This document shows positions 1-59,401 of a DNA stretch of 64,000 nucleotides, piece by piece. Source of the DNA: Porphyra umbilicalis (taxonomy: Eukaryota; Rhodophyta; Bangiophyceae; Bangiales; Bangiaceae). The stretch spans positions 310,001 to 374,000 of the forward strand of contig KV918787.1 in assembly GCA_002049455.2 (NCBI GenBank), in the 5' to 3' direction. The notes under the pieces were generated by a model. It worked only from the letters and a program-made list of their open reading frames with translations. It ran no database searches and had not been told where the DNA came from. Both the position numbers and the translations under genes were made by a program. How positions within the stretch are numbered: position 1 is the stretch's first letter; each line of letters begins with the position of its first letter.

Positions 1-1140
1 GGCCGCGGTCGCGGTCGCGCTGACGGGCAAGTTGGTGGCGACGATGGAGTCGTAGGTGGTGCTAGTCGTGGCGCTTATGATGGACGAGATGGTCAAGGTG
101 CCGCTCGAGGCGGCGGGCGCTGTGGGCCTGATGATCAAGTTGGTGGTCACGATGCAGTGGCAGGTGGTGCCGGCCGTATTGGCGACGGCGGCCGTCATGG
201 TGACGGTCCAGGTCAAGGCGGCGGTCGCGTCCGGGCTGACGGGCGCGTTGGCGGAGACGATCAAGTCGCCATTCGTGCTGGTCGTGGTGATGATGGCGGA
301 CGGTGTGTTGCACGTCAAGGTGCGGGCAGCGATTGCCGTCAGTCTGGTGGTCGCGTTGGTAGCCACGTTGATGAGGCAGGTGGCGCCGGTGGTAGTGGCG
401 ACGGTGGCCGTCGTGGTCACGGTTCAGCGCAAGGCGGCGGTCGCGGTCGCGCTGATGGTCTAGTTGGCAGAGACGATGGGGTCGCAGATGGTGCCGGTCG
501 TGGCGCTAACGGTGGACGAGATCGTCAAGGTGCCGGTCGAGGCGGCGGACGCCGTCGCCCTGATGGTCGAGTTGGTGGTCACGATGCAGTGGCAGGTGGC
601 GTCTGCCGTAATGGCGACGGTGGCCGAGTTGGACACATTCAAGAACAAGGTGGCAGACGCCGTCAGCCTGGTAGTCGAGTGGGGTATCATGACGATGTTG
701 ATGACGATGAGGTACCTGGTGGTGCAGCAGGACGTGATCGTGATGATCAATGCCAAGGCGGAGGTCTCCGTCGGCCCTACGAACGAGGCGGCGGTGACAA
801 TGAGGCCGCAGGTGAAGCTGGCCGTGGAGGTGATGGTGCACAAGGTAGTCAAGGTCATGGAAAAGGCGGCGGTCACGGTCGCCCCGATGATCGAGGTGGC
901 CGTGACGACGACGTTGCACGTGGTGCTCATCGTGGCGCTGATGCTGGACGGGGTGGTCAAGGTCAACGTCAAGGCGGCGCACACCGTCGGCCTGTTGGTG
1001 AAGGTGGCGATGTCGACGAGGTCGCTGACGACGGGGTCGCACGTGATGCTCGTCGTTGTGCTGATGCTGGACGGGATGGTCAAGGTCAACGTCAAGGCGA
1101 CGCACGCTGTCGGCCTGTTGGTGAAGGTGGCGGCCTGAGG
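1..1140 (+). repeat. degenerate in-frame minisatellite, Gly/Arg/Asp-rich
   Basis: Recurring blocks such as GACGGTGGCCGTCGTGG, GATGGTCGAGTTGGTGG and GGTCAAGGTGCC follow each other in degenerate order. Because block lengths are multiples of three, several frames on both strands stay open through the array. In the JmjC frame it encodes short Gly-Gly-Arg, Asp-Gly-Arg-Val-Gly and His-Asp units. The array continues past the left edge of the window. Confidence 0.7.
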
Positions 1141-3009
1141 GGTGGGCGGGTGGCGCACGGTGGTGCTGGAGGCAGTGGTGAAGGGGGTCTGCATGCACTG
1201 GCGCGGCTGCAACACGATGAGTCGGTGGTGGAGCCGCAGACTGCCGAGCACGGTGGCACGAAGTTCCACTCAATTCCTGTCACCTGCATAACCACCCTTC
1301 CGGACCTCGGACTGCTTGGCTTGATTCGATCGCAGACAGCGTCCATCCGTACATTTGGCGCACACGTGTTTCGAATAGTAGCACCCCGTATTCGACCTGT
1401 GTCATGCGCGGCGCCAAAGCGGAAAGTTGGCGTGAAAGTCCGGGTGCGGATTCAAACTTTCCCGCAGTACCCAACCATTGTCAGTGCGTCCTTCGGTGGT
1501 AGCACGCAGGCGCATCCTGGTGTGAATCGCGAAGGGCTACGAGATCAAATGCCGCCAGAAAGGGAGATGATGCTATCGAGTGCTGAGGTCAAGAAGAGGA
1601 TGCGCGAGAGCACAACCGCTCTTCGCGCCCGATACAAGGACTTTGGTGTTCCTCAGTTCCTTCAGAACGTCAATGATCCGAGGGTCACCTGGATGCGAGG
1701 TGTGACTGCAGGTGGGCGCGAGACCAGAGCCCTTGGTCCTGGAAAGCCCCAGCCAATAGAGGTGTGCTACGTCTCCGACATGACTCCAGCGAACGAAGAT
1801 GGGTGTGGCAGGAGCCTGGGCGATCGAGCCTGTACAGCCAAACCGGAGCCCTTTCCGCCGAATGAGCGCTTGCAGAACCCTCGTACTCTGAACCACCACA
1901 GCATGCTTGGTGCCTGTGCCACATACGAAGGCATCAACACTAGCTTTCTCTATATGGGAAGCGTTGGGTCTCACTTTAGTTGGCATGTAGAGGACCATCT
2001 GCTGCAGTCGACTTCCTACCTGCAGTCCGGGGCGAACAAGTTCTGGTTTTTTGTTGCGAGGTCTGAGGTTCCAAAAATGGTACGCGTCATAAGTGAACAC
2101 ATGGACCCTGTCGTTCTGGCAGCTGCAGGAGGTGACGTGTGGACGTTTCTAGCGGAGAAGGCAGTCTTGTGGCCTGCGTCGTTTTTCCTTGCGCACGGCG
2201 TTCGCGTCGGCTTCCACAAAATGGAAGTTGGCGACTTCGTCGTGACGGGCTACGGCGTTCCGCACAGCGGATTCAACGCGGGAACGAACGTAGCGTCTGC
2301 AGTGAACCTTGCGTGCACTGGCTGGCTTGCGCATGCTATTGAACATGAGGCCCGCTGGCGTGGAAAGATAGGGATGCTTATTCCATTCGAGAAGCTGCTC
2401 GTACTGAGCGCCCTGAAACTGGCTGCTGGAAAGTGGTGGTTTGGCGATGCGAAAGCCTATGAGGCGTGCGACCCAGCAGAGTTTCGACGGGACCTCCGAG
2501 TCATGACCTCCTTCTTGACCGAGTATCTAGACTGCATCCTTGCGTACATGAGAACCGATTCGCATCCAGCCTGGAAGGGAGAAAACGCAGTCGTCGTGGA
2601 CTTACAAGCGGCACCCCACGCTGTGAAGCAGTTTGTTACCGATAACGCGATCAAACCAGCCGGTCACGGGTTGGTGCTCCCCAACGAGAAGGATGGAGTC
2701 GTCACAGACTACTCTGTGGACGGTGCGGCGTGCCCTCATTGCGGAACTGTCGTCTGGATGTCCTTGGTCGTGTGCCCGGCATGCATTGACCAGCTAGGCG
2801 ACGGAGCTGGACCGAGTGCGCCGATCTGCTGCTGGCGGTGCGCGCCGACCAAGTACGACGATCTGCACTACCGGCCCGAGCAGGCCAGCGGGAAGGAGCC
2901 GCACCTCGTTGGATGTCACGCTCCTTTGGTGGTGCAGCGGCTATCCAATGGCCGCGTGTCCTCGCTAGTGGAGGAGCTGAAGACGATTGGGGACATGGGT
3001 AGTGACTAA
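1..3009 (+). CDS. JmjC-domain protein (Fe/2-oxoglutarate oxygenase, KDM4/5-like), 5' end outside window
   Basis: The frame is open from base 1, so the true start lies upstream; residues here are counted from base 1 (1002 codons to the stop). Residues 1 to about 380 are a low-complexity Gly/Arg/Asp repeat. A JmjC fold spans about 640-785. The Fe(II) triad is visible as H662-x-E664 and H755 (in PHSGFN), and K680 in ANKFWFF sits where KDM4 enzymes bind 2-oxoglutarate. The C-terminus carries a zinc-knuckle-like set, C911, C914, C925, C928, C943, C944, C947, C972 and H973, reminiscent of the C5HC2 finger of KDM5. Known members demethylate histone lysines; no JmjN, PHD or Tudor domain is visible here. 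The gene converges on the transposase at 3508-6495, which suggests it is cargo or a partner gene of a transposon. The JmjC call is strong; the substrate is unknown. Confidence 0.8.
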   Translation, partial: GRGRGRADGQVGGDDGVVGGASRGAYDGRDGQGAARGGGRCGPDDQVGGHDAVAGGAGRIGDGGRHGDGPGQGGGRVRADGRVGGDDQVAIRAGRGDDGGRCVARQGAGSDCRQSGGRVGSHVDEAGGAGGSGDGGRRGHGSAQGGGRGRADGLVGRDDGVADGAGRGANGGRDRQGAGRGGGRRRPDGRVGGHDAVAGGVCRNGDGGRVGHIQEQGGRRRQPGSRVGYHDDVDDDEVPGGAAGRDRDDQCQGGGLRRPYERGGGDNEAAGEAGRGGDGAQGSQGHGKGGGHGRPDDRGGRDDDVARGAHRGADAGRGGQGQRQGGAHRRPVGEGGDVDEVADDGVARDARRCADAGRDGQGQRQGDARCRPVGEGGGLRGGRVAHGGAGGSGEGGLHALARLQHDESVVEPQTAEHGGTKFHSIPVTCITTLPDLGLLGLIRSQTASIRTFGAHVFRIVAPRIRPVSCAAPKRKVGVKVRVRIQTFPQYPTIVSASFGGSTQAHPGVNREGLRDQMPPEREMMLSSAEVKKRMRESTTALRARYKDFGVPQFLQNVNDPRVTWMRGVTAGGRETRALGPGKPQPIEVCYVSDMTPANEDGCGRSLGDRACTAKPEPFPPNERLQNPRTLNHHSMLGACATYEGINTSFLYMGSVGSHFSWHVEDHLLQSTSYLQSGANKFWFFVARSEVPKMVRVISEHMDPVVLAAAGGDVWTFLAEKAVLWPASFFLAHGVRVGFHKMEVGDFVVTGYGVPHSGFNAGTNVASAVNLACTGWLAHAIEHEARWRGKIGMLIPFEKLLVLSALKLAAGKWWFGDAKAYEACDPAEFRRDLRVMTSFLTEYLDCILAYMRTDSHPAWKGENAVVVDLQAAPHAVKQFVTDNAIKPAGHGLVLPNEKDGVVTDYSVDGAACPHCGTVVWMSLVVCPACIDQLGDGAGPSAPICCWRCAPTKYDDLHYRPEQASGKEPHLVGCHAPLVVQRLSNGRVSSLVEELKTIGDMGSD

Positions 3010-3507
3010 GTCGACAACGTTCTTGCATTCTGTGGGTTTCGTACTTCTTTGTCTGTATGTGAGTTGAGTGGCAGTTTCGTGATGCTCACTGGGGCGCCTT
3101 CATCATGTGATGCCTCTCCTTTGATTCCTTTGTTCCGTCGATCAACGGGGCGCTGCACGCACCAACGTCGCGGACAGAAACTCCCGCGCCATCGTGCACA
3201 GGGATCTGGCATGGCTTGCGATAGATTATACAAGCCATGGCGTCGGCACAGGTCTGTACGAAGAGTGAGGTCCCTTCCAAGAGAGAGAAAAAGTAGTGGT
3301 TGCGAGCGACGACTGGCAAAGATGGCGAAATGATACTTCTCTTTTGGCTTTGAATCTTAACTGAAAATGTGAACAACTCTTCCTACGAAACTTCTCTGCT
3401 TGTCTCTTGCGACCGTATCAGCACGATAGGTCTATAAAAAGTCGTGCAATAACAGCCTTTTCTGGGCTACCGTCTCCGTGCTCCTCGCAAAACTCATGCA
3501 GCCTCCC
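3010..3507. other. convergent 3' region between JmjC gene and transposase
   Basis: About 500 bp separate the two convergent stops. The DNA is less GC-rich than the host genes and no conserved ORF is seen. It presumably holds both 3' untranslated regions; I see no clear polyadenylation signal. Confidence 0.5.
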
Positions 3508-6495
3508 TCAGCCGCTCTTAAAGTGGAAGCCCGACTTCTTTGTGAACAGTACCTTGTCCGCGCCGCAAGGGAGAACAAAAGCAGACTGCAGTACGCGCTC
3601 AGCTTGCACAAGTTCCACGCCGGACGTAGCGTCGAGTTGGACTACCGTAGGTTTCCCAACGATGCATAAGGCTGACGCAGGGGCTGTCCACCATTCACAT
3701 TCAAGGTACAGCTCTTCCGCAATTGTGCCAATCGCTCGGACGCGACCGAATTGTACTCTCTGCCCTCCTGTCGTGCTGGGGTCGTTCAATACGTCACATG
3801 CATCTTCTTCTTGGAGCACAGACACTGTCGACCCCTCTCGAATGAAAAATGATCGCTGTGGGTGCCTGGCTTTCCTCCAGAACTTGACGGGCGCGTTGGG
3901 TGTGTGACCCCGCCAGAAGTCTTCTGTCGAACCCAAAACCATACTCAAGGCTTCCCTGCCGCACCACCTTTGGCCAGTGGCGGATGCCAACCGCCTCTGC
4001 GGAGCGAGCCTGTGAAAAGAGACGGCCTTCAATGGATTACCGCCGAGGCCAAGCAGCCACGATTTCGGAATGCCGTACTCATCAGGCATGGACAGTGCCC
4101 TTGAGTACTGCTCTGTGTCTCTCCACCTTTGCATTGAATATTCCGCAGGGTTCCGATGGTTGCTCTGGCCGATCTCGCGCTTCGCCATCTGATGGAAGTT
4201 CTCAAAGATGAGCTCGCATATTGATGAGCCGAGCTGCACCAACGGTAGAGTACGATACAGCAACTCCAAAAGGCGATGAACGGCAGGCCGCTCCCACTTT
4301 CCGCTGAACGGTTGCAGGCGACGCAACTCAATCATCAGACTCTCGCCGAGACGTTGGAGCTCAACGACTGTTGGCCGTTCCCTCACGGCATGCTCTCCGT
4401 CAGAGCACAGAGTCGGCCTATAAAACAGAGCAGTAGCGAAATGTCGTAGGGCCTTCAGAGCGGTTACAGTAGCAACCGCATGTGCAGAAGTACTTGAGGT
4501 GTGCACACTGTACTCCAGGACCGTGGGACCCACGGTAAGCAGCACTGCGTAGTCGGACATAGAAAGAGTCGTGCCACCCATTTTTTCAGGCTCAAAGGAT
4601 GATAGGATCGTGTGTGTTGGAACATGTTTCGAACTGCGGCGCATTTCTGAAATGAATTTGTCACGCTGCGCGACAGAGAGTGCCTCGTACGCTTCCATCA
4701 GGAGGTTGGATGCAATGTTGTAGTACAAAAGGTGAGATGGTGCAACAATGACATGTTCGTGTATGTCAAACGTCCCAGGACCTCGGGCCTCAGTCAGTCG
4801 CATCATCAGGCTACCTGACTTGTCCGTAACTCCATTTAGCAGGAGTGCGTCTTTCATAGCTTCTGCAGACAACTGCGTAGATCTCTTCAGGGAAGACATG
4901 ATGGCAGCTGTTCGCTCTTGCACTCTGGAGTACCTTGTGTCTTTGACATCAAAGGAAACTGTGCTGCTCATCGCGCGATCCCTCCTCTCGCTCTTAGTCT
5001 TCGGATGGACAATGTCGCAGCTGGTGCAGTGCTCAGTTCCTGGAGCTCCTACAGAGTTGGAGAACTTGGCCGCCATAGGAAAATCAAACACGCCCAGGCA
5101 CAAGAAAACCCGAACCACGACGTTTTCCTTTGAGTGCGCGTCATACACGGCAACACCTTCCTTGCTCATTTGGAGCATGTCCTCGACGACACGCTTCAAG
5201 AGAGCTTCAGGGTTTGCCCCAGGTGGTAAGTAAAAGAGTGGCCGAACGGAGAACGCACGATCATGCAAGCTCAGAGACGTATACGCTCCGTAGTAGCCCT
5301 CTAAGCTCCCACGGCGTCGCTTGTACACGCTAAACTCATCCGCGTACAATGAAACGTACAGAGTGTGTGGGTCTTTCTCTGGCAGCTCGTCTTCGTTTTG
5401 CTCTGCAACTTGTGTCAGCTCAATCGGCTTTTCTGCCGTCAACAGCGTCCAAGAATCCTTTTCGCGCTCGGTAGAGCTGCGCACCGCATTGATAAACACA
5501 CCGCCTGACCTTGTGAATCGTAGCGTGCACCGGCGAGCATCCTTAAAGCACGAAGCCCACGGATCAGGAGGCTCAATCCCATGCATGACATCAAACAGCC
5601 CTAGTAAGTCCCCAACTCTGAGGGCGCTTGGTGGAGCATACGACGCCTCTGAGATCGAGACGTCTCCATCGGATGCAATCGCTGTGCTTTCCAATCGGGC
5701 CGGGAGCGTTGTGCTGCCATCCAAAAAGACAGAGACAATACACCCAATGCCGTACGTGTATCCGTCTCGGAAAAATCCGTTCTTGAAATTGAACCGAGCC
5801 GGGTCCCTCGCAGCTACTGTTTGAAAAAACTCTGTTGGGCGCTCAACGGTCCCTGCGCGCGCATCCCCTTCGCTGTGGAACAGAGCTGCTGTGACTGGGT
5901 CCTCAAAGTCCCTCTTGATGTGCACGGAAAAGGGAATGTAAGACACAGTAACGTCCGGCAGTTTGCGAAGAGCCTTCCCTTTGCCAACGGGTAACTGCCG
6001 CGTGGTCACTTCCCGTCTCAGAGGTATAGCGGTGTTCAGCATTTGCTTGCGCAACTGTTGTAAGCGCCATCTAGATGGCCACTTCTCTTTGGGGCTGAAT
6101 GAGTTCTCTGCCTCTCGCATAATGTCGTACTGCCGCAGCGTGACACGCGCTCGACCAAAGAGGTACCCAAAGCAGAGAAACTCCCGGCGAGACGCAAATT
6201 GCCCGACTGGTCGTTCCTCTTCACTGGAGATGTCTGTATCGTCAGAGGGGCATCCATCAGGCTCAGATTCTGAAGACGTGACTACATCTTGGTGGTCCTC
6301 TAGAGAGGGTGCTGGTGACGGCCTTCCTGACAGCAGGCCCAGGTTTTGCGTCACACCGCTATTTCCAGACTCCTCCATAGGCACTGCTCTCGAACCTGTC
6401 GTTGAGGTGGCCTGCTGCGACTGCATATGCATGAGGTCTCCATCGGAAAGATCGAAGTAGGCGGAGCCTCGAGGCCCCCGCCTGCGACGCTTCAT
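3508..6495 (-). CDS. tnp2-like DDE transposase (EnSpm/CACTA-Plavaka type)
   Basis: An uninterrupted 995-residue protein starts at the ATG ending at 6495 with a basic MKRRRRGPRG segment, a likely nuclear signal. The core resembles tnp2-type transposases. It has an LYADEFSVYKRRRG segment with candidate catalytic D386, then a VRPLFYLPPGA stretch, then a V..GVFDFPMAAKF segment with D471 followed by a CTSC pair, and a late CELIFENFHQMAKRE segment with E765. The C-terminus is a small domain of the kind that ends Plavaka-like transposases. Codon use is less GC-biased than in the host genes, consistent with a mobile gene. The frame is intact, so it may be recently active. The DDE assignment rests on motif spacing only, and the superfamily (CACTA, Plavaka or KDZ) is not settled. 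Confidence 0.65.
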   Translation of the reverse strand: MKRRRRGPRGSAYFDLSDGDLMHMQSQQATSTTGSRAVPMEESGNSGVTQNLGLLSGRPSPAPSLEDHQDVVTSSESEPDGCPSDDTDISSEEERPVGQFASRREFLCFGYLFGRARVTLRQYDIMREAENSFSPKEKWPSRWRLQQLRKQMLNTAIPLRREVTTRQLPVGKGKALRKLPDVTVSYIPFSVHIKRDFEDPVTAALFHSEGDARAGTVERPTEFFQTVAARDPARFNFKNGFFRDGYTYGIGCIVSVFLDGSTTLPARLESTAIASDGDVSISEASYAPPSALRVGDLLGLFDVMHGIEPPDPWASCFKDARRCTLRFTRSGGVFINAVRSSTEREKDSWTLLTAEKPIELTQVAEQNEDELPEKDPHTLYVSLYADEFSVYKRRRGSLEGYYGAYTSLSLHDRAFSVRPLFYLPPGANPEALLKRVVEDMLQMSKEGVAVYDAHSKENVVVRVFLCLGVFDFPMAAKFSNSVGAPGTEHCTSCDIVHPKTKSERRDRAMSSTVSFDVKDTRYSRVQERTAAIMSSLKRSTQLSAEAMKDALLLNGVTDKSGSLMMRLTEARGPGTFDIHEHVIVAPSHLLYYNIASNLLMEAYEALSVAQRDKFISEMRRSSKHVPTHTILSSFEPEKMGGTTLSMSDYAVLLTVGPTVLEYSVHTSSTSAHAVATVTALKALRHFATALFYRPTLCSDGEHAVRERPTVVELQRLGESLMIELRRLQPFSGKWERPAVHRLLELLYRTLPLVQLGSSICELIFENFHQMAKREIGQSNHRNPAEYSMQRWRDTEQYSRALSMPDEYGIPKSWLLGLGGNPLKAVSFHRLAPQRRLASATGQRWCGREALSMVLGSTEDFWRGHTPNAPVKFWRKARHPQRSFFIREGSTVSVLQEEDACDVLNDPSTTGGQRVQFGRVRAIGTIAEELYLECEWWTAPASALCIVGKPTVVQLDATSGVELVQAERVLQSAFVLPCGADKVLFTKKSGFHFKSG

Positions 6496-8801
6496 TGCCG
6501 GTTGGGGGCCAGAAACAGGGCAGCAAGCTGAGCTTCGAATTCACTCAATAGGGAGCTATGACGATGCGGGGAGACGCAAGCAGACTCGATTCGGATAAGA
6601 CCAGTCCAGGAACGATTCGAATCGCGCTTCTGTACCCAGTACGAGCAGCCCTTGACAGAAGACGTCCCCGGCACATCATCCGAGGTGTGGCATGGCAAGA
6701 GCGTAAAACCGCCCTGCCGCGTGTGCTCGATGCACACGAGGTTCTGATTCGTTAAACTCTACTGAATCCAGAAGCTGGCAGCATGCTTGAGCTCGCGAAC
6801 CGTCCATGCATCGTCCTACATGGCCGTGTGACGAACAATCCCAGAACTGGGACGAGTGTCGCCCTCAGAAACGACCGACGGAAGATCTCACAGATCATCC
6901 CAATGGTACTCTGCTGTTACGTTCTTCGTTTGATCCCACGGACTATCCACGGAGCAGTCCGCTTCTGATCCCAGGACATTGCGTAAGATCATCCCGAAGA
7001 AAATGACTGAAGTCGCCCTGAGAGAGTTCCAAGTAATTTCCGGAAGAAACAACGTGCGCCAATCTCACGACGATCCTGGCATCACATCCGGAGCATCTGT
7101 GGAAGAATTCGAGGGACTCCCTCCTACCGATCCTTCAATCGATGTGCGATAATTCGAAGGATCGTTCAAAGCTGTGTGCAGGATTGATTTGGATGCAAGA
7201 AACAGACAGACCTCTGGAAACCCCTGCGGACCATCTGAATCAAGCACCAGGATTAAATAAGGAAGAGGTCGCAAATCGCTGTGGATGAGGTCCATCGAGC
7301 GCCCATCGAACGCCCATCGAACAGCGGTTCCGATGGGCGTTTTCACGAGCTCCGCGCGGAGTTCCGGGCCGAACAGCCGATTGGCGGATGGTGCACGGCG
7401 TCTGCCGTGTCGACGGCTCACCGTGCTGTGGCCAATGGGACACCATTTTTCCTGTCACTCCTGGACAGAAGCACCAGAGACCGACAGCACAGTGACACTC
7501 CGAGAGAGGCTGTGAGAGGGCATGAGAACAACTGTTGCGCCGACGGGGACGAGCCGACCACAGTCTCCTGAAGATTTCATGAAATACAGGTGTCTCGTGA
7601 CTGGTCCACAAGGCACAAGGGGAGCCCACCGAAACAAACTCAACAATCGCACAAGAAACGAAGCTCAGAGGCCGCCATTTCTCCCGAGCACGTGCCGACA
7701 CGCGCAGGTGAGGAGCACCACGATTCCCTTGCATCAGATTGGGACGAGTCGGACAACTCCTGGGATCCTGGCGTGACATCGGCGTCACAAATCGGAATGG
7801 CTCGATGCAGCAACGGCCTTCCATCTGACATCACCCCTCCTGACCATTTGCTGCCAGACACGAGAGGCACATACCAATGTGACATTCTGAAATGAGCATT
7901 TCAGCCACACTTGAAGTATCGCAAGCAACCTATCTGATGCCGCCGCGGAAACGATTTATTTCATGCAACTGCGCTCCCGCAAAAAAACAGTTGCGATCGC
8001 TCGCAGGAGTTGTCCCAATCTGATGCATCAGATCCCCTTGCATGCAAGGGGATCGCGGTGCTGCTCACCTGCGCGAGTCAGAGCTGGTTAGCACGTGCCG
8101 GCGCGTGCCAGTCCACTTGGCGCTGTTCTCTTTGTCCGCGCCTTGCTTCGACGTTGAAACGAACCTCTCGTGTCATGGAGGCAGCATCGTTCTTGATTTG
8201 TGGCTGTGAAGGGCGTTGCGTGTCTCACTGGCCCCTATCAGAATGAGCGACCAGCAGTTTTCGTGACCCGTGGCATTTGCGGGTTCATGATTCGATAATC
8301 CTGTCACAATGTTCGCAATATTCATGTCAGTGTGTTCTTCATGAGCGTGCGAGGTTTTTGGAAGATCGGCTGTAGATCTGGACTCGCCGCAGTCCACTCA
8401 CCTATGGGCCAACTCGTCGGCTGTGTACGATGAAAACTCGGGGGGGTGCCCCAAACACCCCAAAAAGGCCGTGTTTCCAGGCCATATGAGAGGGTGCCTC
8501 ATTTGAGCCTCATTTGAGCCTCGGGAGCAGTAGAATAGACGCTAGTGTCTATTATATTGCTGTCTTCCCAATTTTGGCCGATCCATGAAGCCCGATGAAG
8601 CCCGGGCCCACCGGGCAAATCGCCCCGTCGGACACCCATCAGTTCCAACCAGACACCCGATTCGATGGCCACCGAACACCTCCCTCGATCCCTCGATGGG
8701 GATTCTACCGGAAGCTGACGATGCTAATGAAACGACACAACACAATACGCACACGACAAGACAAACGGCCGGCTGTCACTCCCGCCACCCCCGCCCCTAA
8801 C
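6496..8801. other. non-coding, hairpin-rich flank of the transposon
   Basis: No ORF here resembles a protein. The stretch contains short palindromes: GATTCGAATC near 6614; CGATCCTTC...GAAGGATCG across about 7128-7163; CGCCCATCGAAC repeated near 7310 and answered by TTCCGATGGGCG near 7325. A larger imperfect inverted repeat (7560-8250) and a 12-bp tandem duplication around 8497-8521 are also present. It may be subterminal transposon DNA. Confidence 0.45.
7560..8250. repeat. imperfect long inverted repeat
   Basis: The left arm around 7690-7761 (GCACGTGCCGACACGCGCAGG, then GGAGCACCACGATTCCC, TGCATCAGATTGGG, GGACAACTCCT) recurs as its reverse complement around 8000-8100 (AGGAGTTGTCC, CCCAATCTGATGCA, CACCTGCGCG). 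Weaker complementarity continues outward to about 7570 and 8215. The loop between the well-matched arms is about 240 bp. It could be a fold-back element or a subterminal region of the adjacent transposon. Confidence 0.55.
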
Positions 8802-10989
8802 TTAGGCGCGCGTGCCCGCGTTCCACCGCTCGACGACGCTCTTGTGGAACACCGCCTCCATCCACGCCGGCCGCGCGACGCCAAAGTGGTGGTACAAGAC
8901 CCGCTCCGCCGACCGCAGGGACGCTTCGGCCCAGCCGCGGTCCTCCCCCCATGCCTCATTGACGAGGTGCACGCCCGGTGCGGGCGCGGCAAAGGTGCGG
9001 AGCCAGTCCCGGCCCGGCGCACCCCGCGCGTAGGCGCTCAGCGCGTGGACGCCGACGTCCCACCACACGGCCGACGCGCACGCTTCCGGTTCGGGGATGA
9101 GCTCGGACGCGTTCATGCCCGACGCCGCCGCCACGTCCGCGTGCGACGCGCGGAGGGCGGTGAGGGTGGCGTCCCACAGCAGCCCCCGCCGCCCACCCGT
9201 GTCGTTGCGCGCCTCGGCGCGCGTGAACCGGTCGACGGCATTGTCGGGCGCGCCCGACAGGGGCGAAAAGGGCACCGCCGAAAATCCGTGGGACCAAATG
9301 GACTGCCGCACGCCCGTGGCGTCGCCGAGGACGTAGCTGACGAGCAGCGCACCGCGGCAGCCGGTCAGGCGCTCCGGGTCCTCACACGTGACGGAGCCGT
9401 CGTGGTAGCGGAGGGAGAAGAGCGGCGCCTCCATCCGCGCCCGCCCGCGCGTGCGGCCGAGTTTGGTGAGCCACCACGCGTCGGCCCACCAGCAGTATAT
9501 TTTGGAGGAGGGCGCCACGTAGACGGCGTCGAGGGCGGTGCGGAATTCGGCCGACGCGCCGGCAATCGGGAGGGAGGCGACGCCCCAGGCGGCCACGTCC
9601 GCCTTGCCCGCATTGACAATGACGCGGCGCACGGTGACGGAGCGCCCATTGGAAAACGAGACCGTGACGGCGGTCCCGTTCTGGCCCGACGGCCGCCCCA
9701 AAAAGATGGCGCGGTGGCCAAAGACCAGCCGCCCGCCGGCGGCCGTCACCGCCTCGGCGAGGCGGTCGAGGACCGTCGCCATGCCCGCCCGCCGGCCCGT
9801 CTCTGGGTCGACGGGGTTGACCATCCCCGTCGGCTCGTCGGCCGACGGAAACGTCCACCGCTCGAGCGCCACGTTCCGCAGCTGCACCCGCGCATAGTCT
9901 GACAGCGGGGTTTGATACCACTTGGCGTCGCCAACCGAGTTGCCCATGTCGAGCAGTGCCGCCAGCTCCTCCTCCGCATACCCACCGTCGCGCGCAATCT
10001 GCAGCACCGACACCTGCGTGTAGGGCGTGCCGCGGTAGCCCGTCGCGGACGTGCGGAGCGCCTCGAGGATTTCGTCAACGACGGCCATGGCAGCCGCATA
10101 GTCGCGCGCGCCGTCCAAGTCGGCCCAGCGGGCGGCGATTTCAGGCACCGCCGTGTCGGGGCCGATCAACCAATCCCGGGGGCTCCGCGGCCCCGTCGAC
10201 GCCGCGCGGCCGCCGGCCGACGCGTTGACGCCCCACCGCCCCGCGGGGGGGATGGCGTACGGGATCAAGCCGGGCGCCCACGTCGCGAGCTGCTCGTCAA
10301 CCGATACGTTGGGGGTGGAAAAGAAGGCGCGGCCACGGGCGGTGACGAGCACCCGGTCCTCGGCCCCGCACGTCTCGTCCCGCCCGAGGGGGTCCGTGTA
10401 GCAGGTGCTGGTGACGTTGAGGGGGCCGTCCGCGAGCATGCGCGTCAGTGCGTGGCGACGGCGGTGCCAGCGGTAGGCCCCTGCGGACGGTTAAGGTCAT
10501 CGGCATGAAAAAAACAGGCACAGAGGTACAGCAAGAACACAAAATTGATATAGGCACAGATGGCGAGGAGAAGGTCATTTCACTATGGGGTAAGCACTAT
10601 GCCGTCACGTTATGTCCCTACTTCACGCGGGCATCCCCTCTTGTCCAGCCCCCCCTCGTCGTTGCCTCACGCCACACACGCCACGTACCCATATCCACGG
10701 TGTACCCATCAAAGCCCTGCGGCAGCGCATCCGCGCCGCGCAGCGTGAGGATGCGGCCACCCGTGCGGGCCGACGCTTCAAAGATGCACACCTTGGGGGC
10801 CACCCCGCCGCCCCCCGAGCCGCCCGTCAAGAGCCGCCACGCGGTGTAGAGGCCGCCAATCCCCGCGCCAATCACCGCCACATCACAGTCAGAGGGGGTG
10901 GCAACGTCGGCAGCCGCCCCAACGGCTATGGTGGCGGCGGTCGCCGCGCACAGGAGGGCGGCGACCGAGGCAACGTGGCGCATCGGCAT
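8802..10989 (-). CDS. secreted FAD-dependent amine oxidase (L-amino-acid oxidase-like)
   Basis: There are two exons: 10989-10689 and 10480-8802. The intron (10481-10688) begins GTACGT, has CTTAAC as a branch site, and ends in CCGCAG; joining gives the family sequence VDMGAYRW. The product is 659 aa. Residues 1-27 form a signal peptide (MPMRHVASVAALL, then an Ala-rich core), so it is probably secreted or vacuolar. The dinucleotide-binding motif is G41-A-G43-I-G-G46 with E71 for the ribose and the amine-oxidase GGRI box at 77-80. The C-terminus has the usual NEAWGEDRGWAE element that closes the FAD site. Flavin amine oxidases make a keto acid or aldehyde, ammonia and H2O2. Amino-acid oxidation is a guess; a polyamine oxidase cannot be excluded. 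The upstream ATG at 10989 follows a TATA box by about 135 bp. Confidence 0.8.
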
Positions 10990-11124
10990 CGCCAACGGCA
11001 ACCGAGGGGCAAACAAACGGGGTCGGCGGGGGCTGACGACGACGGCACAGGGACAGAGTGCGACGGCAGGGACACGCACAGTTGTGCGCGGCCGTTTGGG
11101 GGTTGTCGGCCAGCGTGCGGGACG

Positions 11125-11131
11125 TTTTATA
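11125..11131 (-). promoter_or_regulatory. TATA box of the amine oxidase gene
   Basis: TATAAAA on the minus strand lies about 136 bp upstream of the ATG at 10989 in otherwise GC-rich DNA. Start-site position is inferred only. Confidence 0.5.
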
Positions 11132-11299
11132 GTCTGGCCGTCGAGCGGGCCCGGGCTTGATGATGATGGAAACGATGGCCTCGCAACGAGCGAGGCAGAA
11201 ACACTCGCGAAAGGCGGAAGGCTTTCCTCACGGCACTGCGGGCGAGCACCCTGACCATTGGGGGCCCCCAATGGAGGACATCGCGCGAGGACAACCACG

Positions 11300-12430
11300 G
11301 GCCAACGGCGTTGAGGTCATCCTAACTGGTACTGTACCTCGTGCCAGGCGCTTCACACCTGCTGGTCGTGGCAAGGCGGCGCCGCCCATCATCGGCCGAC
11401 CCGCTGCACCGCTCCAGTTATGCATGACACGTCACATTCATAACTGGGGGATTTTCCTTGGCCGAGGGCGCACGAGAACGCAGTACAGTCTTTCTCCATT
11501 CCTGTAGGTTCCTTCGCTACTGTACCCACCCCTGGATAAGAACGAAACAGCTTTGCACTGCCAGGAAGGGCGATTCTGCCGTCTTCTGCACGAAGAAAGA
11601 GGGCTACTTCGGTCCCGGTCGGGCGACGACAAGGGTGGACAGCACTGGAGAAAGACTGTAAATACAGTATTCAACTGTTTGCAGACGACCAAGTCACCAG
11701 AGGGCATCCCATTGGTCAGATCATGCAGATGTGGCAACGCACGCAGTCAGCAACAATCCAGCAACATGAACAGTTGACCAAGTGCGCCAGGGTGTCATAT
11801 AAGCGAATATTGACAGTAGAGGCTGGACAATAGGGAAGGCACATGTCACGCCACGTTGTGACATGTCATGACATTTCCTGTGTCACGCCCCACGGGGTCG
11901 ATTTCGCCGATGTCATGACACAGGAATTGTCATGACATGTCACCACGTGGCAGACGCCCACCCCCGATCCTGTGCCTAAAAAGGCATGCTGTGAATGCGA
12001 CCAAGCGCGCCGCATATGAGGAGGGTCCCTGATCCGCAAGAAGTCCTCAAAATCGATCCCTGCGGCGTTCAAAATCGCCGAGTATAGACCATAGGGATAC
12101 AGTGCCTCCTCGCATCTGTTCGCACTGTCAACATTTCATATGAGAGGTATTCGAGAAAGTAGCACCGTCAAAGACACGCCGCGAGAGGGAAGCACAGCCA
12201 GTACGTGGTCATAAAGTTGAAGTTGGCCCCTGGGTTTCGGTGATCTTGTTTACATTCTAGTTGTAACGCTGTATTTTCTAGACATAGGCGGCGCGCCGGG
12301 TGCTGTGTTTATTTGCCTTGCTGCCCATTGGTGTATACTGCTCGGGCCGGCCACAAACATGACGTTAGGGGGGGGAGAGAACCCATACGATTAGCGCGTC
12401 AGACGGGGTGGGTCCCAGGAACGGCGCACC
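11300..12430. other. intergenic, no gene seen
   Basis: Moderate-GC DNA with no conserved ORF. Its main structure is the 11851-11948 hairpin annotated separately. The rest shows nothing recognisable. Confidence 0.4.
11851..11948. repeat. long hairpin (inverted repeat, arms about 35 bp)
   Basis: The left arm reads GCCACGTTGTGACATGTCAT then GACATTTCCTGTGTCA. The right arm, around 11913-11948, is its near-perfect reverse complement (TGACACAGGAATTGTC then ATGACATGTCACCACGTGGC). Only a few mismatches separate them, and the loop is about 27 bp. The arms contain CACGTG and TGACATGTCA sub-palindromes. It could be a small fold-back element or a regulatory hairpin. Confidence 0.65.
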
Positions 12431-23797: not shown

Positions 23798-24274
23798 CAT
23801 GGCGGCACCGATGGCGTCGGGCCTGCCGCGCGCCCGCGCCGCCGCCACCGTCGGCGACGCGTGGGCCGCGTGGCCGCCCGCCGCCGCCGCCGCCGCCGCC
23901 GGCGGGCCGCCCGTCGACGCGCCCGCCGCCCCTCCGCCCCGCCGCCGCCGACTGGTCGTTTGTCGGCGGCGGCGGCGGCAGGGGGCCCCCCCCCTTACCG
24001 CGCCGCCCGAGGCGGCGGCCGCCACCCCTCCCCCCACCACCACCACCACCACCACCACCCCTTCACCGCCGCCGACGGGACCGACGCGGGCGGCAGCGGC
24101 TGCGGCGGTAGCGGCAGCACCGGCGGCGGCGGCTCCCCTCCCCCGCCGTCAAAGCCGCCTACTTTGCGCGCCCCGGCGTGAGCCTCGCGACCGAGATGGC
24201 GGCGGTGCTTGGCCCCCCCCCCCCCGGCACCCCCCCCCCCCCCCGACGGCGGCGCCGACGGTGCCGCCACGTCG

Positions 24275-24309
<35 letters not shown>

Positions 24310-27112
24310 GCCGGGGGCGGTGGCGGCGGCCAACGCGGCGGCCGTTGCCGGTGGCTTTGACCCGCTCAGCTACTTTGGCGGCCGCTCCTGCTTGTGGGGG
24401 GGCGGCGGCGGGCGCGCGCGCCACCCGGGGTGGCCCCCGACGCCCGTGCGGGGCGTGCGGGGGGGGCGGGCGGGGGGGGCGCCGCGGGCCCTCCCGCCGG
24501 CGGCGGCGGTGGTGGCGTGGGGGGGGGCTCCCCAGAGGGGGGGGGGGGGGGGCCCGGCGGAACCGTTTGGGGTGACGGCGTTGAGCCCGGCGGCGGCAGA
24601 CGCACCGGCGCGTGGGGCGGGCGGGGGCGGCGGGGGGGCGGACGCGTCGACGCCCGCGGCGGCGGCAGAGGGGCCCCGCGCCGCCGCCGCGGCGGCGGCG
24701 GTCGACGGCGCAGACGCCAACGGCGGCGGCGCGGGCGTGGACGACGCGTCGGTGGCGACGGCGCCCAGCGACGGCGCCGCCGACGCGCGCGCGCGTGTGC
24801 CGACGGTCGGCGCCCCCCCCCCCCCCCCCGACGGCGGCGCGTCCCCCCCGCCAGCCCCCTCACGGGCACCCCCCCCGCGCGGGACCGGCGCCCCCCCCCT
24901 CCCCCCCCCCGGCGCCTGCCTCCCCCCCCCCCCCCCCCCGTCGGCGTCGCCGCGGCCGCCGTCGCGCGCCGCCGACGGGGCGTCCCCCCCCCCCCTCCCC
25001 CACCGTCGTCCTCCTCGACACGCCCGCCGACGGGGGCGTGGCGGGCCTCCCCCCACCCCCTCCTCGTCGACGGGGAGGGGTGGCGGACGCGGGGCCCGTC
25101 GCGACGGGCGTCCGCGCCGCCTACACGGTGACGACGGGCGTCGTTGCGCCGGCCGCCACCCCCGTCGCCGCCGAGGTGGTGGCGGGGGGGGGGGGGGGGG
25201 GGGGCGCTCCCCGCCAAACTCCCCTGGGCCGACTGGGCCACCGACGCAGACGGCCGCGTGACGCTGCTCGTCGTTGCGGCGCCGGTCGTGGACGGCGCCG
25301 CGTCCGCGACGCTCGTCGTGACGGCCCGCGGCGGAGCGGCGGGGGACGGTGGGGGGGACCCCACGGGCTCCCGCGGTGCCCGCGCCGTCGCCGCGCCGCC
25401 GGTCGGGTGCCGCCTCGCGGCCGTGACGCTCCGCGCGACCGGCGTGCGGGCGGTGTGGGGCTTGACCGCCCACGGGGAGGCCAATGGCGGCGGCGGCGGC
25501 GGCGCCTCGTCCACCTCGGCGGCCTACCACACGCCCGGCGGGGCCGCCGCCGACGGGGGTGGGGGCGACGGGGACCCCCCCCCCCCCCACCCCCGAGCCG
25601 CCGTCCACCCCCGCCACGCGGTCGGCGCGATCGCGGTACGCGGCGGCGACCCCCCCCCCCCCCCCCCCCCCAGCGGCTCCCCCGCGGCGGCGCCCTCCCC
25701 CCCCGCACCGTGCGCCTCGCCTTTGACGCGTACGGCCGCCCCGCCGCCGCGTCGGTCACCAACGCGGGCGCCGTCGGGGTGCCCGTGGCCCTCGCCGCCG
25801 CGCCGTCGGGGGGGGGGGGGGGGCCCTCGTCCCCGAATGGGGCGACGGCGTGCGGCGGCTGCTGTGGCTCCCGCCGGGCGCGTCGCACACGTTTGGGGTC
25901 GCCTACACGGGCGCGCGGCCGCCGGTTGGGGGGGGGGGGGGGGGGGGAGGAGCCGGCCGGGCCCCCGCCGGGGGGGGTCCTCCACGCGCGGGTCGTCGCG
26001 ACGGTCGGGGGGGGGAGCCGCACCCTCGACGTGCGCCTCGTGACGCCGCTGCTGCCCGAGCCGCCGGGGGAGGAGGGGGGGGGGGGGTCCACGCGCACGG
26101 CACGGGGTGTGGGGGCGACGCGCACGACGCGGCCGCCGACGGCGCGCCGCCGTGCGGCGTGCCGCACGCGCCGGCGCGCGGCGCGCCGCCGTCGACCGCC
26201 TCGTCGCCCCTGCCGCCGTCGCCCGTCCCCCCAACGCCGACCCCCCCCCCCCGTCGCCGCCACCGGCGTCCCCCCCCCCCCCCCCCCCACCGCGTCGGCC
26301 GCCGCCCCCAGCCCTGCGGCCGCCCCAGCTCCGCCGCGGTGGCGGTCGAGCAGGTGCCCCCCCCCTCCCCCCCCTCCCCGTCGACGCCCCCCCCCCCCCC
26401 CCCCCCCCCACCCCGGCGTGCGCATTCCGCGGCGGCTCACCCCCGCCGCCGGCGGCGCCGTCACCCTCACCGACGCCCACCCGTCGGCGGCGTTTCCGGT
26501 CGCCAATGGGTCCCCGTCGGCGGCGGTGCGGGTGCGGTGCGCCCTCGACCCCGCGGGGGTGGCGCACCTCGCGGCCGGCCCCGAGGTGCTCCTCGGCCCC
26601 GGCGGCCGGTCCGCCGTGCGCCTCGTCCGCGCCGGCGGGGGGGCGGCGCGTCCGCCGCCGCGACGCTGACGCTCACGCCCGTGACGGAGGGGGGACACCC
26701 CACCGCCGCCCCGCCCGTGGTCATCCCCGTGGCGACGCCGGCCGGCCGCCCCGCCTTTTTCGAGTGCCCCCTCCTGACGTGGGGCCCCCCCGACGGCGGC
26801 GGTGGGGGCGCCGGCGGCGGCGCCGGCGGCGCCCGCAACAACGACACCCGCACCGCGACGCTCGTCAATACGGCCGACGCGGCGGTGACGCTGGCGGTCG
26901 TCGGCGACGCGCCCGGCTGGGCGTTTCCCCGCCGATCCGTGCGGCTGCCCGCCCGCCGCCGCGGGCGCCTGCCCGTCACGTGGGTGGGAGGGGGGGGGGG
27001 GGCGGGGGGGGGGGGGCGCCGCCGCAACCGTCCCGTGCGTCGTGACGCTCGAGGGGGGGAGGGGTGGGGCACCGAGTTGCGGTTGGAGCGGCGGCCGCGG
27101 CTGGGGGGGTGA
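23798..27112 (+). CDS. large protein with Ig/ASH-like beta domains, frame broken at C/G runs
   Basis: No single frame spans the region, but plus-strand segments in different frames read as protein and join at C or G runs. In order they include ADWSFVGGGGG, a poly-His tract (CAC repeat near 24035-24058), AAYFARPGVSLATEMAAVLG, GGFDPLSYFGGRSCLW, WADWATDADGRVTLLVVAAP, GVRAVWGLTAHGEANG, TVRLAFDAYGRPAAASVTN, RRLLWLPPGASHTFGVAY, TLTDAHPSAAFPVANG, and TATLVNTADAAVTLAVVGDA followed by a C-terminus ending RPRLGG. Alternating strand-like segments with N-T/N-x and proline turns recall ASH/MSP Ig folds (CEP192, HYDIN), but this is a structural guess. The ATG at 23798 is the first plausible start, downstream of the hAT element. 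Red algae lack centrioles, so a centrosomal role would be surprising. Confidence 0.35.
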
Positions 27113-29698: not shown

Positions 29699-32600
29699 CT
29701 ACGGCCGGTTCACCGCCGACTGGCGGCTGTAAAACTCGGCGACCTGCGTCGCGTCCGTCGCCTCCTCGGGCTTCTTATCCTCCCGCACGCGGATCAGCCG
29801 CGGAAACCGCAGCGCAATCCCCTTGGCCGCGTCGACGAGCCCGACCGCCGCTTGGTGTTGGGGGCTGATGCTGAGGTCGGCGCACTTGACCTCCCACACC
29901 TGCGACGGCTCGAGCCACACGTCGGGGGTGACGAGCGGCCCCGTGCCGACGCGGTAGTAGGGCTTGGGTGCTGGCAGCAGCCGCCCCGCGTCCGGCTCTT
30001 GGTAGTAGGCTGCAAAGTCGGCAATCTGCGCCTCGGTGTAGCCCGTGCCGAGCTTGCAAATCGACTGGAGGCCCTCCGTCTCGGCGTCCCAGCAGGCGAG
30101 CAGGTACGCGCCGTAGGCGCCGGTGCGTTTGCCCTTGCCGTAAAAGGCGCCGATGGGCACCAAGTCGAGGGTGTCCCCAACCGACTCCATGTAGTCCTTC
30201 TTGAGCTTGAGCCAATTTTGGCTGCGGTTGGCGGGCTCGTACGTCGCGTTGGGGCCGTCGAGGGACTTGACCATGAGCCCCTCGCAGCCCGACGCGATCG
30301 ACTCGTTGAGCAGCGCCGCCATCTCGTCCGTGTCTTGGCCGTCGCCGCCCATGGCAAAGGAAAACACCCCGTCGACGGGGGTAAACACCTCGTGCAGCCG
30401 CCGCCGTCGTTCACGGAGGGGCAGGCGCACGAGCGACTCGCCATTGACGTACAGCAGGTCAAACGCAAAGAGGCACACCTGCACCTTGACGTCGGCGAGC
30501 GCCACGTCCTTGCGGGCGCGGCCTTGGAGCTCTTGAAACGCCCGCACGCGCTTGCGGTCGGGGTCCCACGCGACCGCCTCGGCGTCGAGCACAAAGGAGG
30601 CGCCCTCAAAGCCGGGCGCGAGCGCGCCCGGCAGGTTGGCCACAATATCCGGATACTTGGGCGTCGAGCACTCGGCGGAGCGGGAGTAAATGTGGAGCGA
30701 CCCGTCGGTCAGCCGGTGCACCTGCGCGCGCTCCCCATCGTACTTGTACTCGCAGGTGAAGGGGTGTTCGGAGAATTTGTCAAGCACCTCTGAGACGCCC
30801 TTGGTCGGCTTGGCGAGCATCGGCCCGACGGGGACGCCGGGGGTGAGCTTGCACCGCCGCAGCAGCCGCCCGTCAATGGCGCGGTACTCGCGGAGGGCGG
30901 CGACAATCTCCTCCCACAGGGGCAGCTCGTTGTACGCCCGACACAGCAACACAATCGCCTTTTTGATGCGCTCGTCCATGACCGCTTCCGCGCCCGCGGC
31001 GGTGCCGGCAGAGAGTTTGTTGACGCCGACGAGCACCATTTGCTTGCCGGCCGCCTTTTTGGCCTTGGCCGTCTTGGCGTCCGCCTTGCCCGCGTCGCCG
31101 CCCTTGGTCGGCTTGGGCGCCTGCTTCTTCTTGGGAGCCACCGGAGCCTCCTCCTCGTCCTCCCCGTCGGCCGCGCCCGCACCGCCCGCGTCCGCCCCAG
31201 AGCTCCCCTGCGTCGGCCCCTCCGTGTCCGAGGCCGCCTCGCCCCCCCCCCCGCCCCCCCCTCCCCCTCGTCCTCGCTGCCAACGACGGCGCCGGCCAAC
31301 GCGTCAACGGCCGCCGCCGCGGGCGCCTTGCCCGAGTGCGCCGCCTCCATCGCCAACACCGCCTCCGCGTCGTAGTCCACCCCCGGCGGCGGCGGCGGCG
31401 CGTCGCGCGTCACCGCCGCCGCCAGCGCCGACAGGACGGTGCGGATGGCGAGGTGGATGCGGAGCTTGCCCGACAGCGCCCGCACAATGTACTTGGCTTC
31501 GGCGCCCTTGGCGGCGGCGAGCAGCTTGTTGATGCGGAGCGCCTTGCCCGCCTGTGCGGCCTTGCCCCCCGCCCGCGCAATCGCCCGCAAGTCACGAAAG
31601 AGGCCCCGCACCGTCAGCCGCGGCGGCGCCATGAGCGTCCGCTGCGTCGACCGGGACGCCGCCGCCACGTCGCCCAAATCGCCCGACGCTTGCAGCGCCG
31701 ACCGGAGGGCGGGGAGGGACTTGCCCGTCGACGACGCGAGCGCTTTGAGGAGCGTCGCTTCGCCGACACCGATTTCCACGCCCTCGTGCGCGGGCGCGAG
31801 TTTGTTCACACACAGGTACAGCGCCGGCACGAGGTCCCCGGGCGTCGAGCCGCCAATGACGCGCAGCGCCGAGGCGAGGATGGCCGTAATTTGTAGGCGG
31901 CCCGTCAGCGCCTCAACGGCGGAAAAGACGTCGGCGAGGAAGGCGTAGGGGACGGGCGCGCCGGCCGCCCAGCGGACGGTGGAAAAGGACGCACAGTCGG
32001 CAAAGCGGTCGTCGAGGGTGCCCCCGCTGGCCGCCGCAGGCGACGGCGCCGTCGACGGGGTGCCCGACGAGGGGGTCGCAGACGCGGCGGCCGCGTCGGC
32101 AGAGGCCGTCATCCCAGCAGCGGGGGCGGGCGTGGGCGCATCCACCGCCATGTCGGCCTCGTCGGCCTTGTCGGCCTTGTCAGCAGGCGCGCCGTCGGGG
32201 GCACCGACGGGCTCTGCCGCAGGGGCGCGTGCCGCCCCCACCGCCGGTCCCTTGACGGCCACCGCCACCGCTTCCCCCTCCCCACCCGCCGTGGCGTCAC
32301 CGCCCTCACCCGCATCCGCAGCGGCTGCCACGGCAACGGCCACAACGGGAGCAGCAGCCGCCGCCTTGGCCGCCGCCGCCGCCGCCGACGACGACGCTGC
32401 CGCTGGTGCCGCCGCGGCCTGTGCCGCCCCCCCCCCTTGCCACCGACCTTGGCGGCGCCCCCGCCGGCCGCCGCTTTGGCCGCCCCCCCGCCCTTGCCAC
32501 CGACCTTGGCGGCGCCCCCGCCGGCGGCGGCCTTGCCAAACGGCAGCTTGGTCTGCGTCGCGCCGGCGCCCTTGGGGGCGCCCCCCCTCGCGCCGCCCTT

Positions 32601-33052
32601 TGCAAAAAAGGAGAGCGTCGGCTGCACGAGCCCCCCCGACGGGCCCGCCGGCGCCGTCACGCGCTTCTTCTTCTTGGCATCCCCGGCCGCGGGGCGGGGG
32701 CGCCCGGCCGACCGGGCCGCGGGCGCGGTGGGGGGGGGGGGGGGGGGGGGGCGGCACCCGACGTGGCCGCGCCGCCGCCGTCGGTCGCCACCGCCACGGG
32801 GGGGGTGGCGGGGGCGGCACGCCCGCCCTCCGCCCCGTCCTCCTTCTCCTCCTCTGCCCCCTCCTCCTCCTCCTCCCCCTCCTCCTCCTCCTCCCCGTCG
32901 CTCACCACCCGCGCGCGTTTGCGCGACGCCGCCCGCGGGGCGCCCGCCGCGGCGGCAACAACCGCCACCCCATCCTCGTCCTCCTCCGACGCCCCCGCCG
33001 GGGCGTCGGCCGAGGGGGGGAGGCCCTCCGCCACCGCACCCGACAATGTCAT
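29699..33052 (-). CDS. LIG1: ATP-dependent DNA ligase I
   Basis: The gene starts at the ATG at 33052 and ends at 29699. The N-terminus is disordered and rich in Ala/Gly/Glu, with SRKRARVV as a likely nuclear signal and QPTLSFFAKGG, which resembles a PCNA-binding PIP box. The DNA-binding domain begins around RFADCASFSTV and is clear through RAIARAGGKAAQAGKALRINKLLAA. The catalytic core has motif I KYDGER (adenylated Lys at 30743-30745), IIIa FVLDAEAVAWD, IV EGLMVKSLD and V NWLKLKKDY. The OB domain ends with WEVKCADLSISP and ALRFPRLIRVREDKKPEEAT. LIG1 seals Okazaki fragments and repair nicks using ATP. The frame changes at three C/G runs: 32730-32752, about 32430-32437 and 31242-31268. All lie in linkers, so these are probably run-length errors. 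Confidence 0.9.
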
Positions 33053-33898
33053 GGCGGGGGCAGTGGCCGACCAGCCGCGCACACAAGAGCGCGGCTCGGA
33101 GCGACGAGGGGTGGGGGAGGGCGGGGGGGGCGGGGGGGGAGACGAAAGTAGACAAACCCGCGCCGCCCACGGTTCGTCGGCAACGACCGGGCCGTCTGCG
33201 AACGACCCGCCCCCACCGACGCGAGGTGACAGCGCTTAAGACCACCGCGGTCCGACGAGCGGCGGTCGGCAGCCCGGGACGCCCCGCGGGGGTTCCTCCG
33301 TGCGGTCACGGGCAGGTAGCCACGACGCCGGCCACGGCGTCGCGCCGTCCTCCGCGTGGGGGGGCAGCGCCAGCCACGCACGCGCGGGGCCCCGCCGCGT
33401 CGCGTTGGGGGGCGCCGCGGCTCGCAGCCGCGCGGCGGGGCGACCGGCGGCCCGGTCCGCGGGGGCGGCGCCGCCGCGCGCCGGCGCGCCGCCCAAACGC
33501 TCGCAGCATCCGCCGTCGACGGGGCGCGGGGAGCCACCAGACCGGTGGCGCCAAAACGGGGGCTTGCAATTGCACCCGTCGGCCACGGGCGGTCGGCAAG
33601 TCGCCCAGTTGTCGGCGCGACTTGAGCACCCCCTTGATCCGCCGCGCGGCCGCCGCGGCGCCGGCCGCCGCGGCCGCGCGGCGGATGCGCCGCGGCGCCG
33701 GCCGCCGCGTCCACGCGCCCCCCGCCGCGGCGCGGGCGTGGCAGCCAGCGCCCCCCCCCCCCCCCACCGCCGCCGCCGCTGCCGCCGCCGACGCTGCCTG
33801 CCGGTGGGACCCCCCCCGCGCTCGATCGCCCCCCCCCCCCCTTGCCCGACCACGCCCGTCTCCCTCCCTCCCCCCACCCCCCCCCTCGGCGCCGCGGT
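33053..33898. other. divergent promoter region between LIG1 and translin
   Basis: About 850 bp of extremely GC-rich DNA separate the divergent starts at 33052 and 33899. Open frames are compositional. No TATA box is obvious. Part of it could encode an N-terminal extension of translin. Confidence 0.4.

Positions 33899-53406: not shown

Positions 53407-53461
<55 letters not shown>

Positions 53462-59369: not shown

Positions 59370-59401
<32 letters not shown>

Follow-up and report, generated by a model that had tools for sequence, protein, structure and literature searches.

The left part of a 64,000-nucleotide stretch of the Porphyra umbilicalis genome (contig C27, bases 310001 to 374000; here called the window) belongs to a DNA transposon in which a gene for a JmjC domain protein lies tail to tail with a gene for a tnp2-type DDE transposase. 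The element has defined termini, mostly accompanied by 2-base-pair (bp) target duplications, and carries three conserved genes, with the transposase and a third open reading frame (ORF3) on one strand and JmjC on the other; it occurs in dozens of copies belonging to several subfamilies, and in most copies JmjC and transposase are paired. It is probably an EnSpm/CACTA-like (CMC) cut-and-paste transposon with a captured JmjC gene of the JMJ13/KDM5/KDM4 type, which seems to have become a lasting, co-evolving component and whose product would remove repressive histone methylation at the element. The host is a photosynthetic eukaryote, in whose DNA 10 light-harvesting segments were detected. All searches were made in this one genome (83.8 Mb, 665 contigs), and copy counts are lower bounds; 32 of the 91 JmjC segments described below were retrieved with some flanking DNA, and few elements were retrieved end to end.

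An initial annotation, made from the letters of the window, had proposed a single mobile element containing both genes, and the genome-wide searches bore this out. The JmjC protein of the window matched 91 segments on dozens of contigs (88 of 153 first-look candidates scored) and is thus not single-copy. With the transposase as query, 48 segments were matched (46 of 307 candidates scored), and in 46 of these 48 a JmjC gene was found on the opposite strand no more than 5 kb downstream, the exceptions being C503:33202 and C95:16909. The tnp2 profile of Pfam gave 136 matches (150 of 176 candidates scored), 69 of them to the later part of the profile (lineage A, that of the window's element) and 67 to its earlier part (lineage B). 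A convergent JmjC gene was present within 6 kb in 61 of the 69 lineage A matches, whereas none of the 67 lineage B matches had a JmjC gene within 15 kb. Lineage B, which served as an internal control, includes many open frames of 900 to 1,050 codons at its 67 places (e.g., C181:127777-128094 and C208:18087-18416). Viewed from the JmjC side, the transposase C terminus was convergent within 1.5 kb at all 30 loci L009 to L038, which are the 30 best JmjC matches and hence a biased sample, and likewise at L004 to L006, representing subfamilies ∼32 to 36% identical in JmjC. At L001 to L003, no convergent transposase was found within 1.5 kb, nor within ∼4 kb downstream. Among viral contigs, 87 stretches matched a search pattern, none of which encoded a relative.

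JmjC and transposase have also diverged in parallel. Their pairwise protein distances, calculated for the transposase from its last 211 residues, were closely correlated across 33 elements (Mantel r = 0.970), with 0 of 9,999 permutations reaching as high a value; using one copy for each of seven subfamilies, the correlation was 0.966 (28 of 9,999 permutations). In the C212 subfamily, identity to the window's copy has fallen to 36% for JmjC and 44.5% for the full-length transposase, and the genes are still convergent. For diverged intact copies, the ratio of nonsynonymous to synonymous substitution rates (dN/dS, NG86) was 0.11 to 0.18 for JmjC (9 pairs with dS over 0.3), 0.12 to 0.17 for the transposase (3 pairs of diverged copies), and 0.08 for ORF3 (1 pair), the lowest of the genes compared, all ratios being approximate with dS above 1 in many pairs. 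In 12 pairs of young JmjC copies (dS up to 0.10), dN/dS ranged between 0.135 and 1.82, based on few changes, a scatter compatible with decay after insertion. The H, E, K, and H residues of the active site were kept in 31, 29, 28, and 31, respectively, of 31 aligned JmjC copies, which include decayed ones (the truncated L026 and L028 were left out). These results indicated that JmjC is under purifying selection, like the transposase, and that such selection extends to all three genes, with nearly universal retention of the catalytic residues.

Alignment of copies, which the initial annotation had suggested for defining termini and target duplications, yielded both ends of the element. The right end at window position 7283 is common to the siblings L039, L040, and L041 and to L043 of another subfamily, and the flanks beyond it are unrelated; in L042 and L044, the match to the window ends sooner, at 5876 and 6498, respectively. 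When up to 3 mismatches were allowed, the right terminus AATAAGGAAGAGGTCGCAAATCGCTGTG (7256 to 7283) occurred 28 times in the genome, in 18 cases exactly, and a reversed-pattern control gave 0. By comparison of the window's contig with the sibling on C15, the left end, CACTGTGTGTTGG..., was placed at C27:299655, which is window position -10345 (negative positions lie left of the window), and its pattern was present at 30 places (up to 3 mismatches; reversed-pattern control, 0). The element ends, CACTG... and ...CGCTGTG (CACTGTGTG... and ...ATCGCTGTG), have the CAC...GTG (5'-CA...TG-3') form of EnSpm/CACTA elements. The ends form short, imperfect terminal inverted repeats, in which 8 of 13 terminal bases match, and TAAATAAGGAAG is present near both ends in the same orientation, constituting a direct subterminal repeat.

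Target duplications were compared in 11 elements having both ends in the correct order and flanking a JmjC gene; C254 (ends 49 kb apart with another copy between them; flanks CA and CA) and C124 (ends 37 kb apart) were excluded. An exact 2-bp duplication, within the 2 to 5 bp characteristic of EnSpm/CACTA (CMC) elements, was present in 9 of the 11 and absent at C114 and at the window's own C27 copy. The C15 copy is located at the center of a palindrome (ATAACGAGAACGCACTG, TG, TACAGTGCGTTCTCGTTAT), and the two flanks of this copy match each other at 23 of 30 positions. The palindromic target preference hinted at by these flanks was dropped, as the other ten elements matched at only 10 to 13 of 30.

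The whole element thus defined extends from window position -10345 to 7283 (C27:299655 to C27:317283; 17,629 bp), and its right-hand 7.3 kb occupy window positions 1 to 7283. The extent of 1 to 6495 originally assigned to it contains both genes, but the right end lies beyond it and most of the element is situated left of the window. In the sibling on C15, the element measures 15,206 bp (C15:467327 to 482532; L039 and L046), and its DNA is 99.2% identical to the window part. The window's copy additionally harbors a nested insertion of ∼2 kb (C27 ∼299717 to 301709; window ∼-10283 to -8291), which splits the first 60-odd bases from the element body, has AGCGAAGCTTC-like ends, and in one part (718 bp) is 87% identical to DNA flanking the C15 copy on its left side. 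Two features of composition recorded initially were reproduced: the proportion of G and C (GC content) of the element is lower than that of its surroundings (0.565 over positions 1 to 7283 versus 0.646 over 8001 to 12000), and the setting is rich in repeats, with a 108-bp tandem array filling most of positions 1 to 1132.

The JmjC gene is encoded on the plus strand. Its C-terminal part spans window positions 1 to 3009, and the frame continues to the left of the window; it is open over 2,390 codons in the C15 sibling and over 2,570 codons in an element on C16, whose JmjC is ∼62% identical. The proposed JmjC domain (1945 to 2307) was recovered by the Pfam profile PF02373, against which profiling had been advised, with an E value of 2.3e-16 and 60.7 bits compared to a cutoff of 24 bits. 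All four residues of the Fe(II)/2-oxoglutarate (2OG) site (1984 to 2265) could be located, namely H (1984 to 1986), E (1990 to 1992), K (2038 to 2040), and H (2263 to 2265), in agreement with the complete HxE...H triad and 2OG lysine reported previously. By its sequence, the protein therefore has the JmjC domain, iron site, and 2OG lysine of a JmjC histone demethylase, and its nearest relatives among solved structures are Arabidopsis JMJ13, KDM5, and KDM4. The domain is followed by a Cys/His-rich ribbon (2731 to 2919, plus strand) with invariant Cys and His in alignments, for which there was no Pfam match above the cutoff.

In both C15 and C16, the protein consists of a conserved N-terminal region, a repetitive stretch of ∼1,100 residues, the JmjC domain, and the Cys/His ribbon. 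The N-terminal regions are 31% identical over 322 residues (E = 1e-37). Gly, Asp, Arg, and Ala are abundant in both repetitive stretches, whose sequences appear dissimilar; tandem arrays were measured on C27 only, and the C16 stretch was judged repetitive by eye. In the window, the stretch is represented by 108-bp (36-residue) tandem repeats on the plus strand at positions 1 to 1132 (Tandem Repeats Finder on the window and L045), coding for Gly/Arg/Asp-rich sequence according to the composition of the C15 sibling's repeat. Several candidate assignments were tried and rejected. An Ulp1-like N-terminal domain was suspected by eye, but Pfam gave none, and the best hit of a two-sequence profile against solved structures had an E value of 0.91. 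A JmjN domain upstream of JmjC likewise appeared plausible by eye, and Pfam at E values up to 10 gave none. JmjN is typical of the KDM4 and KDM5 groups, and because it was not matched, we do not claim membership of KDM4 or KDM5 proper. No TET/JBP family domain was detected by Pfam in the window's protein (E up to 1) or in a longer stretch (E up to 10). AlphaFold2 on the single window sequence resulted in a pLDDT (predicted local distance difference test) score of 30 and was not usable.

The transposase is encoded by one intact frame of 995 residues on the minus strand (3508 to 6495), and 498 bp separate its stop from that of JmjC, as expected from the intact tnp2-like gene and the tail-to-tail arrangement initially described. 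Its match to PF02992 (tnp2; E = 6e-7) is, at 29.3 bits, marginally above the cutoff of 28.6 bits, and some siblings fall slightly below it; no match was found among solved structures. Candidate catalytic and CMC-type residues, identified by pattern and not by structure, are D386, D471, C490-x2-C493, and E761/E765. A C(2)C motif, CTSC at residues 490 to 493, was present between D471 and E761/E765 in 5 of 5 aligned transposases. A candidate H(3)H motif, HVP[TK]H at 624 to 628 (H624-x3-H628), was present in 4 of the 5, Y replacing the first H in the C212 relative. In EnSpm/CACTA (CMC) transposases, C(2)C and H(3-4)H motifs are described between the second D and the last E (PMC12730594, in the text available from that source).

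ORF3, a 254-residue exon near the left end of the element on the strand opposite JmjC, is located at L046:5153-5914 (plus strand), corresponding to window positions -7289 to -6528, where the window copy has one in-frame stop. The C15 and C16 versions share 72% identity, and ORF3 matched 151 segments genome-wide. When 63 JmjC copies were compared with 93 selected ORF3 segments, 50 of them had ORF3 upstream and divergent within 20 kb. No known family matched it above the Pfam cutoff; a weak match to CC142_N (17.7 bits, cutoff 27) was not believed.

As to the origin of JmjC, three JmjC genes without a nearby transposase (on C263, C30, and C344) reside in DNA of 72 to 80% GC, compared to 57 to 58% for two element stretches. 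In a JmjC domain tree of 12 sequences, which is small and without an outside root, these host genes were set apart from the elements with a support of 0.986, a split compatible with one capture. The C344 gene (C344:4298-5998; L071), located in DNA of ∼80% GC, has a JmjC domain and Cys ribbon as in the elements. A search with its 567-residue product recovered the gene itself once and 76 further matches, each beginning at residue 254 or later, with 25 to 39% identity. Judged by this common layout, the C344 gene is the likeliest source of the captured JmjC.

We infer that the JmjC protein acts as an enzyme on a repressive mark, that it is targeted to the element, and that the element benefits by having its silencing countered; such a role fits the pairing, the co-divergence, and the selection. 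The protein would be brought to element chromatin, perhaps via its N-terminal region or the Gly/Arg/Asp-rich stretch, although this route is a guess, as the N-terminal region is loosely constrained and without a recognizable fold. There it would remove a repressive histone methyl mark, so that the transposase could be expressed and the element ends would stay accessible. A lineage that lost JmjC would be silenced and die out, which would explain why JmjC and transposase have been kept together. Somewhat more tentatively, a whole EnSpm-like clade may have made a histone demethylase an obligatory, co-evolving part of transposition, with every lineage bearing an eraser of its own against silencing marks and diversification in this alga being driven by a contest with the host over histone rather than DNA methylation.

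A number of observations weigh against this interpretation. The window's own copy is flanked by no matching target duplication, and its JmjC frame is broken by an in-frame stop at window position -626 and by more further upstream. Convergent JmjC was missing from 8 of the 69 lineage A matches, and no transposase reached the Pfam threshold beside 45 of 106 JmjC matches, for several of which tblastn or a protein search did show one. Pfam searches with E values up to 10 on a stretch longer than the window's protein gave no JmjN domain, of which a divergent version is possible. For the N-terminal region, neither Pfam nor the two-sequence profile against solved structures identified a fold, and its dN/dS of 0.48 (1 pair) points to loose constraint. 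All dN/dS values come from copies without stops in the compared stretch. Arabidopsis JMJ13, KDM5, and KDM4 between them act on H3K27, H3K4, and H3K9/K36, so that the nearest solved relatives point to no single target mark. Moreover, other targets are hydroxylated by some JmjC proteins.

In an alternative reading, JmjC would be a co-factor of transposition, hydroxylating or binding the transposase, the ORF3 protein, or another non-histone protein, or playing a structural part at the ends. Accessory proteins of plant CACTA elements do work at element ends, JmjC and transposase have diverged in parallel, as expected of partners, and the long Gly/Arg/Asp-rich stretch of JmjC could bind nucleic acid. 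However, its closest solved relatives are histone demethylases, ORF3 resembles a small accessory gene more than JmjC does, and the full Fe(II)/2OG site has been kept under selection, which makes a purely structural role unlikely; we regard the co-factor explanation as a whole as improbable. JmjC might instead act on host chromatin, either broadly or at target sites, where it would open insertion sites or host genes rather than the element's own chromatin. An enzyme that can diffuse is not bound to act in cis, and the copies are spread across many contigs. A preference for insertion sites, scored as flank palindromy alone, was apparent in 1 of the 11 elements. Nothing speaks directly against action on host chromatin, which we consider distinctly unlikely.

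That JmjC is passive cargo, i.e., a host gene captured without benefit to the element, would agree with the known capture of host fragments by transposons and with the single-copy C344 gene, which has the same JmjC and ribbon layout. It is nevertheless very hard to reconcile with purifying selection that acts across several subfamilies like that on the transposase, with catalytic residues kept in 28 to 31 of 31 copies, and with the age of the pairing, JmjC having diverged to ∼36% and the transposase to ∼44% identity. Mere chance adjacency, or a host JmjC family grown by tandem duplication, is for practical purposes ruled out: the genes occur on dozens of contigs with common termini, unrelated flanks, and 2-bp target duplications, and their association is specific to one lineage (61 of 69 versus 0 of 67). 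We retain the reading of JmjC as a putative demethylase that probably counters silencing of the element.

Should JmjC indeed remove a repressive mark, it would be a weapon that counters silencing directly on histones, and its copies would provide a natural, sequence-diverse enzyme set for asking by which histone mark transposons of this lineage are silenced. Since the pairing is specific to one lineage within a single genome, such an arms race can be tested directly. For annotation, it follows that most of the 105 JmjC profile matches in the genome need not be host histone demethylases. Just past the right end of the element (7292 to 7380) lie tandem repeats of 11 bp (CCATCGAACGC) together with CGCCCATCG in inverted orientation; they may represent another small repeat element. 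GC contents of ∼80 to 86%, far above that of the element, were found at window positions 24001 to 27000, 32001 to 34000, 52001 to 54000, and 57001 to 60000.

In titles and abstract openings among the matches listed from the open-access literature, outside of which most subscription papers lie, we found no JmjC-bearing transposon, and priority is not established. The text available from PMC8304369, on red algal transcription factors, contains no mention of one. The main text of PMC12730594, as available, does not contain the word "jumonji," and "JmjC" was counted 0 times. Transposon cargo described in that text comprises erasers of DNA methylation (TET/JBP), anti-silencing factors, and SET writers of histone methylation; a conserved JmjC component was not among the matches listed.

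The algal element shares single features with several known systems. Similar to Arabidopsis JMJ13, KDM5, and KDM4, its best matches among solved structures, the JmjC protein has the HxE...H motif and the 2OG lysine, but it has no detectable JmjN and is encoded on a mobile element. EnSpm/CACTA (CMC) elements have in common with it the tnp2 transposase, the CAC...GTG ends, the C(2)C motif that follows the second D, and short target duplications; in contrast to them, it carries JmjC and an ORF3 of no recognized family. Vandal elements likewise encode a counter to their own silencing, the role proposed here for JmjC, but they belong to a different superfamily (MuDR), and their protein, VANC, is sequence specific and is not known as an oxygenase. 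In the available text of PMC12730594, plant Vandal elements are described as encoding this self-anti-silencing protein, and HarbingerS and MuDR elements of Phytophthora as carrying SET histone methyltransferases. The latter resemble the algal element in bearing an enzyme of histone lysine methylation, which here is a predicted eraser instead of a writer and is found in another superfamily and host. According to the same text, fungal DNA transposons (Zisupton, Kyakuja, Dileera, EnSpm, Plavaka, Helitron, and others) encode TET/JBP dioxygenases, which are thought to reverse an epigenetic silencing mark, 5-methylcytosine. Among described systems, these are the closest relatives: both are multicopy DNA transposons, EnSpm included, with complete termini and a 2-oxoglutarate/Fe(II) dioxygenase, which in the alga is predicted. 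The fungal EnSpm families have target duplications of 3 bp (PMC12730594), compared to 2 bp in the alga. Unlike the fungal transposons, as far as they are described in that source, the algal element has a third gene and a JmjC domain of the histone demethylase type preceded by a long N-terminal part with repeats, and it resides in a photosynthetic eukaryote.

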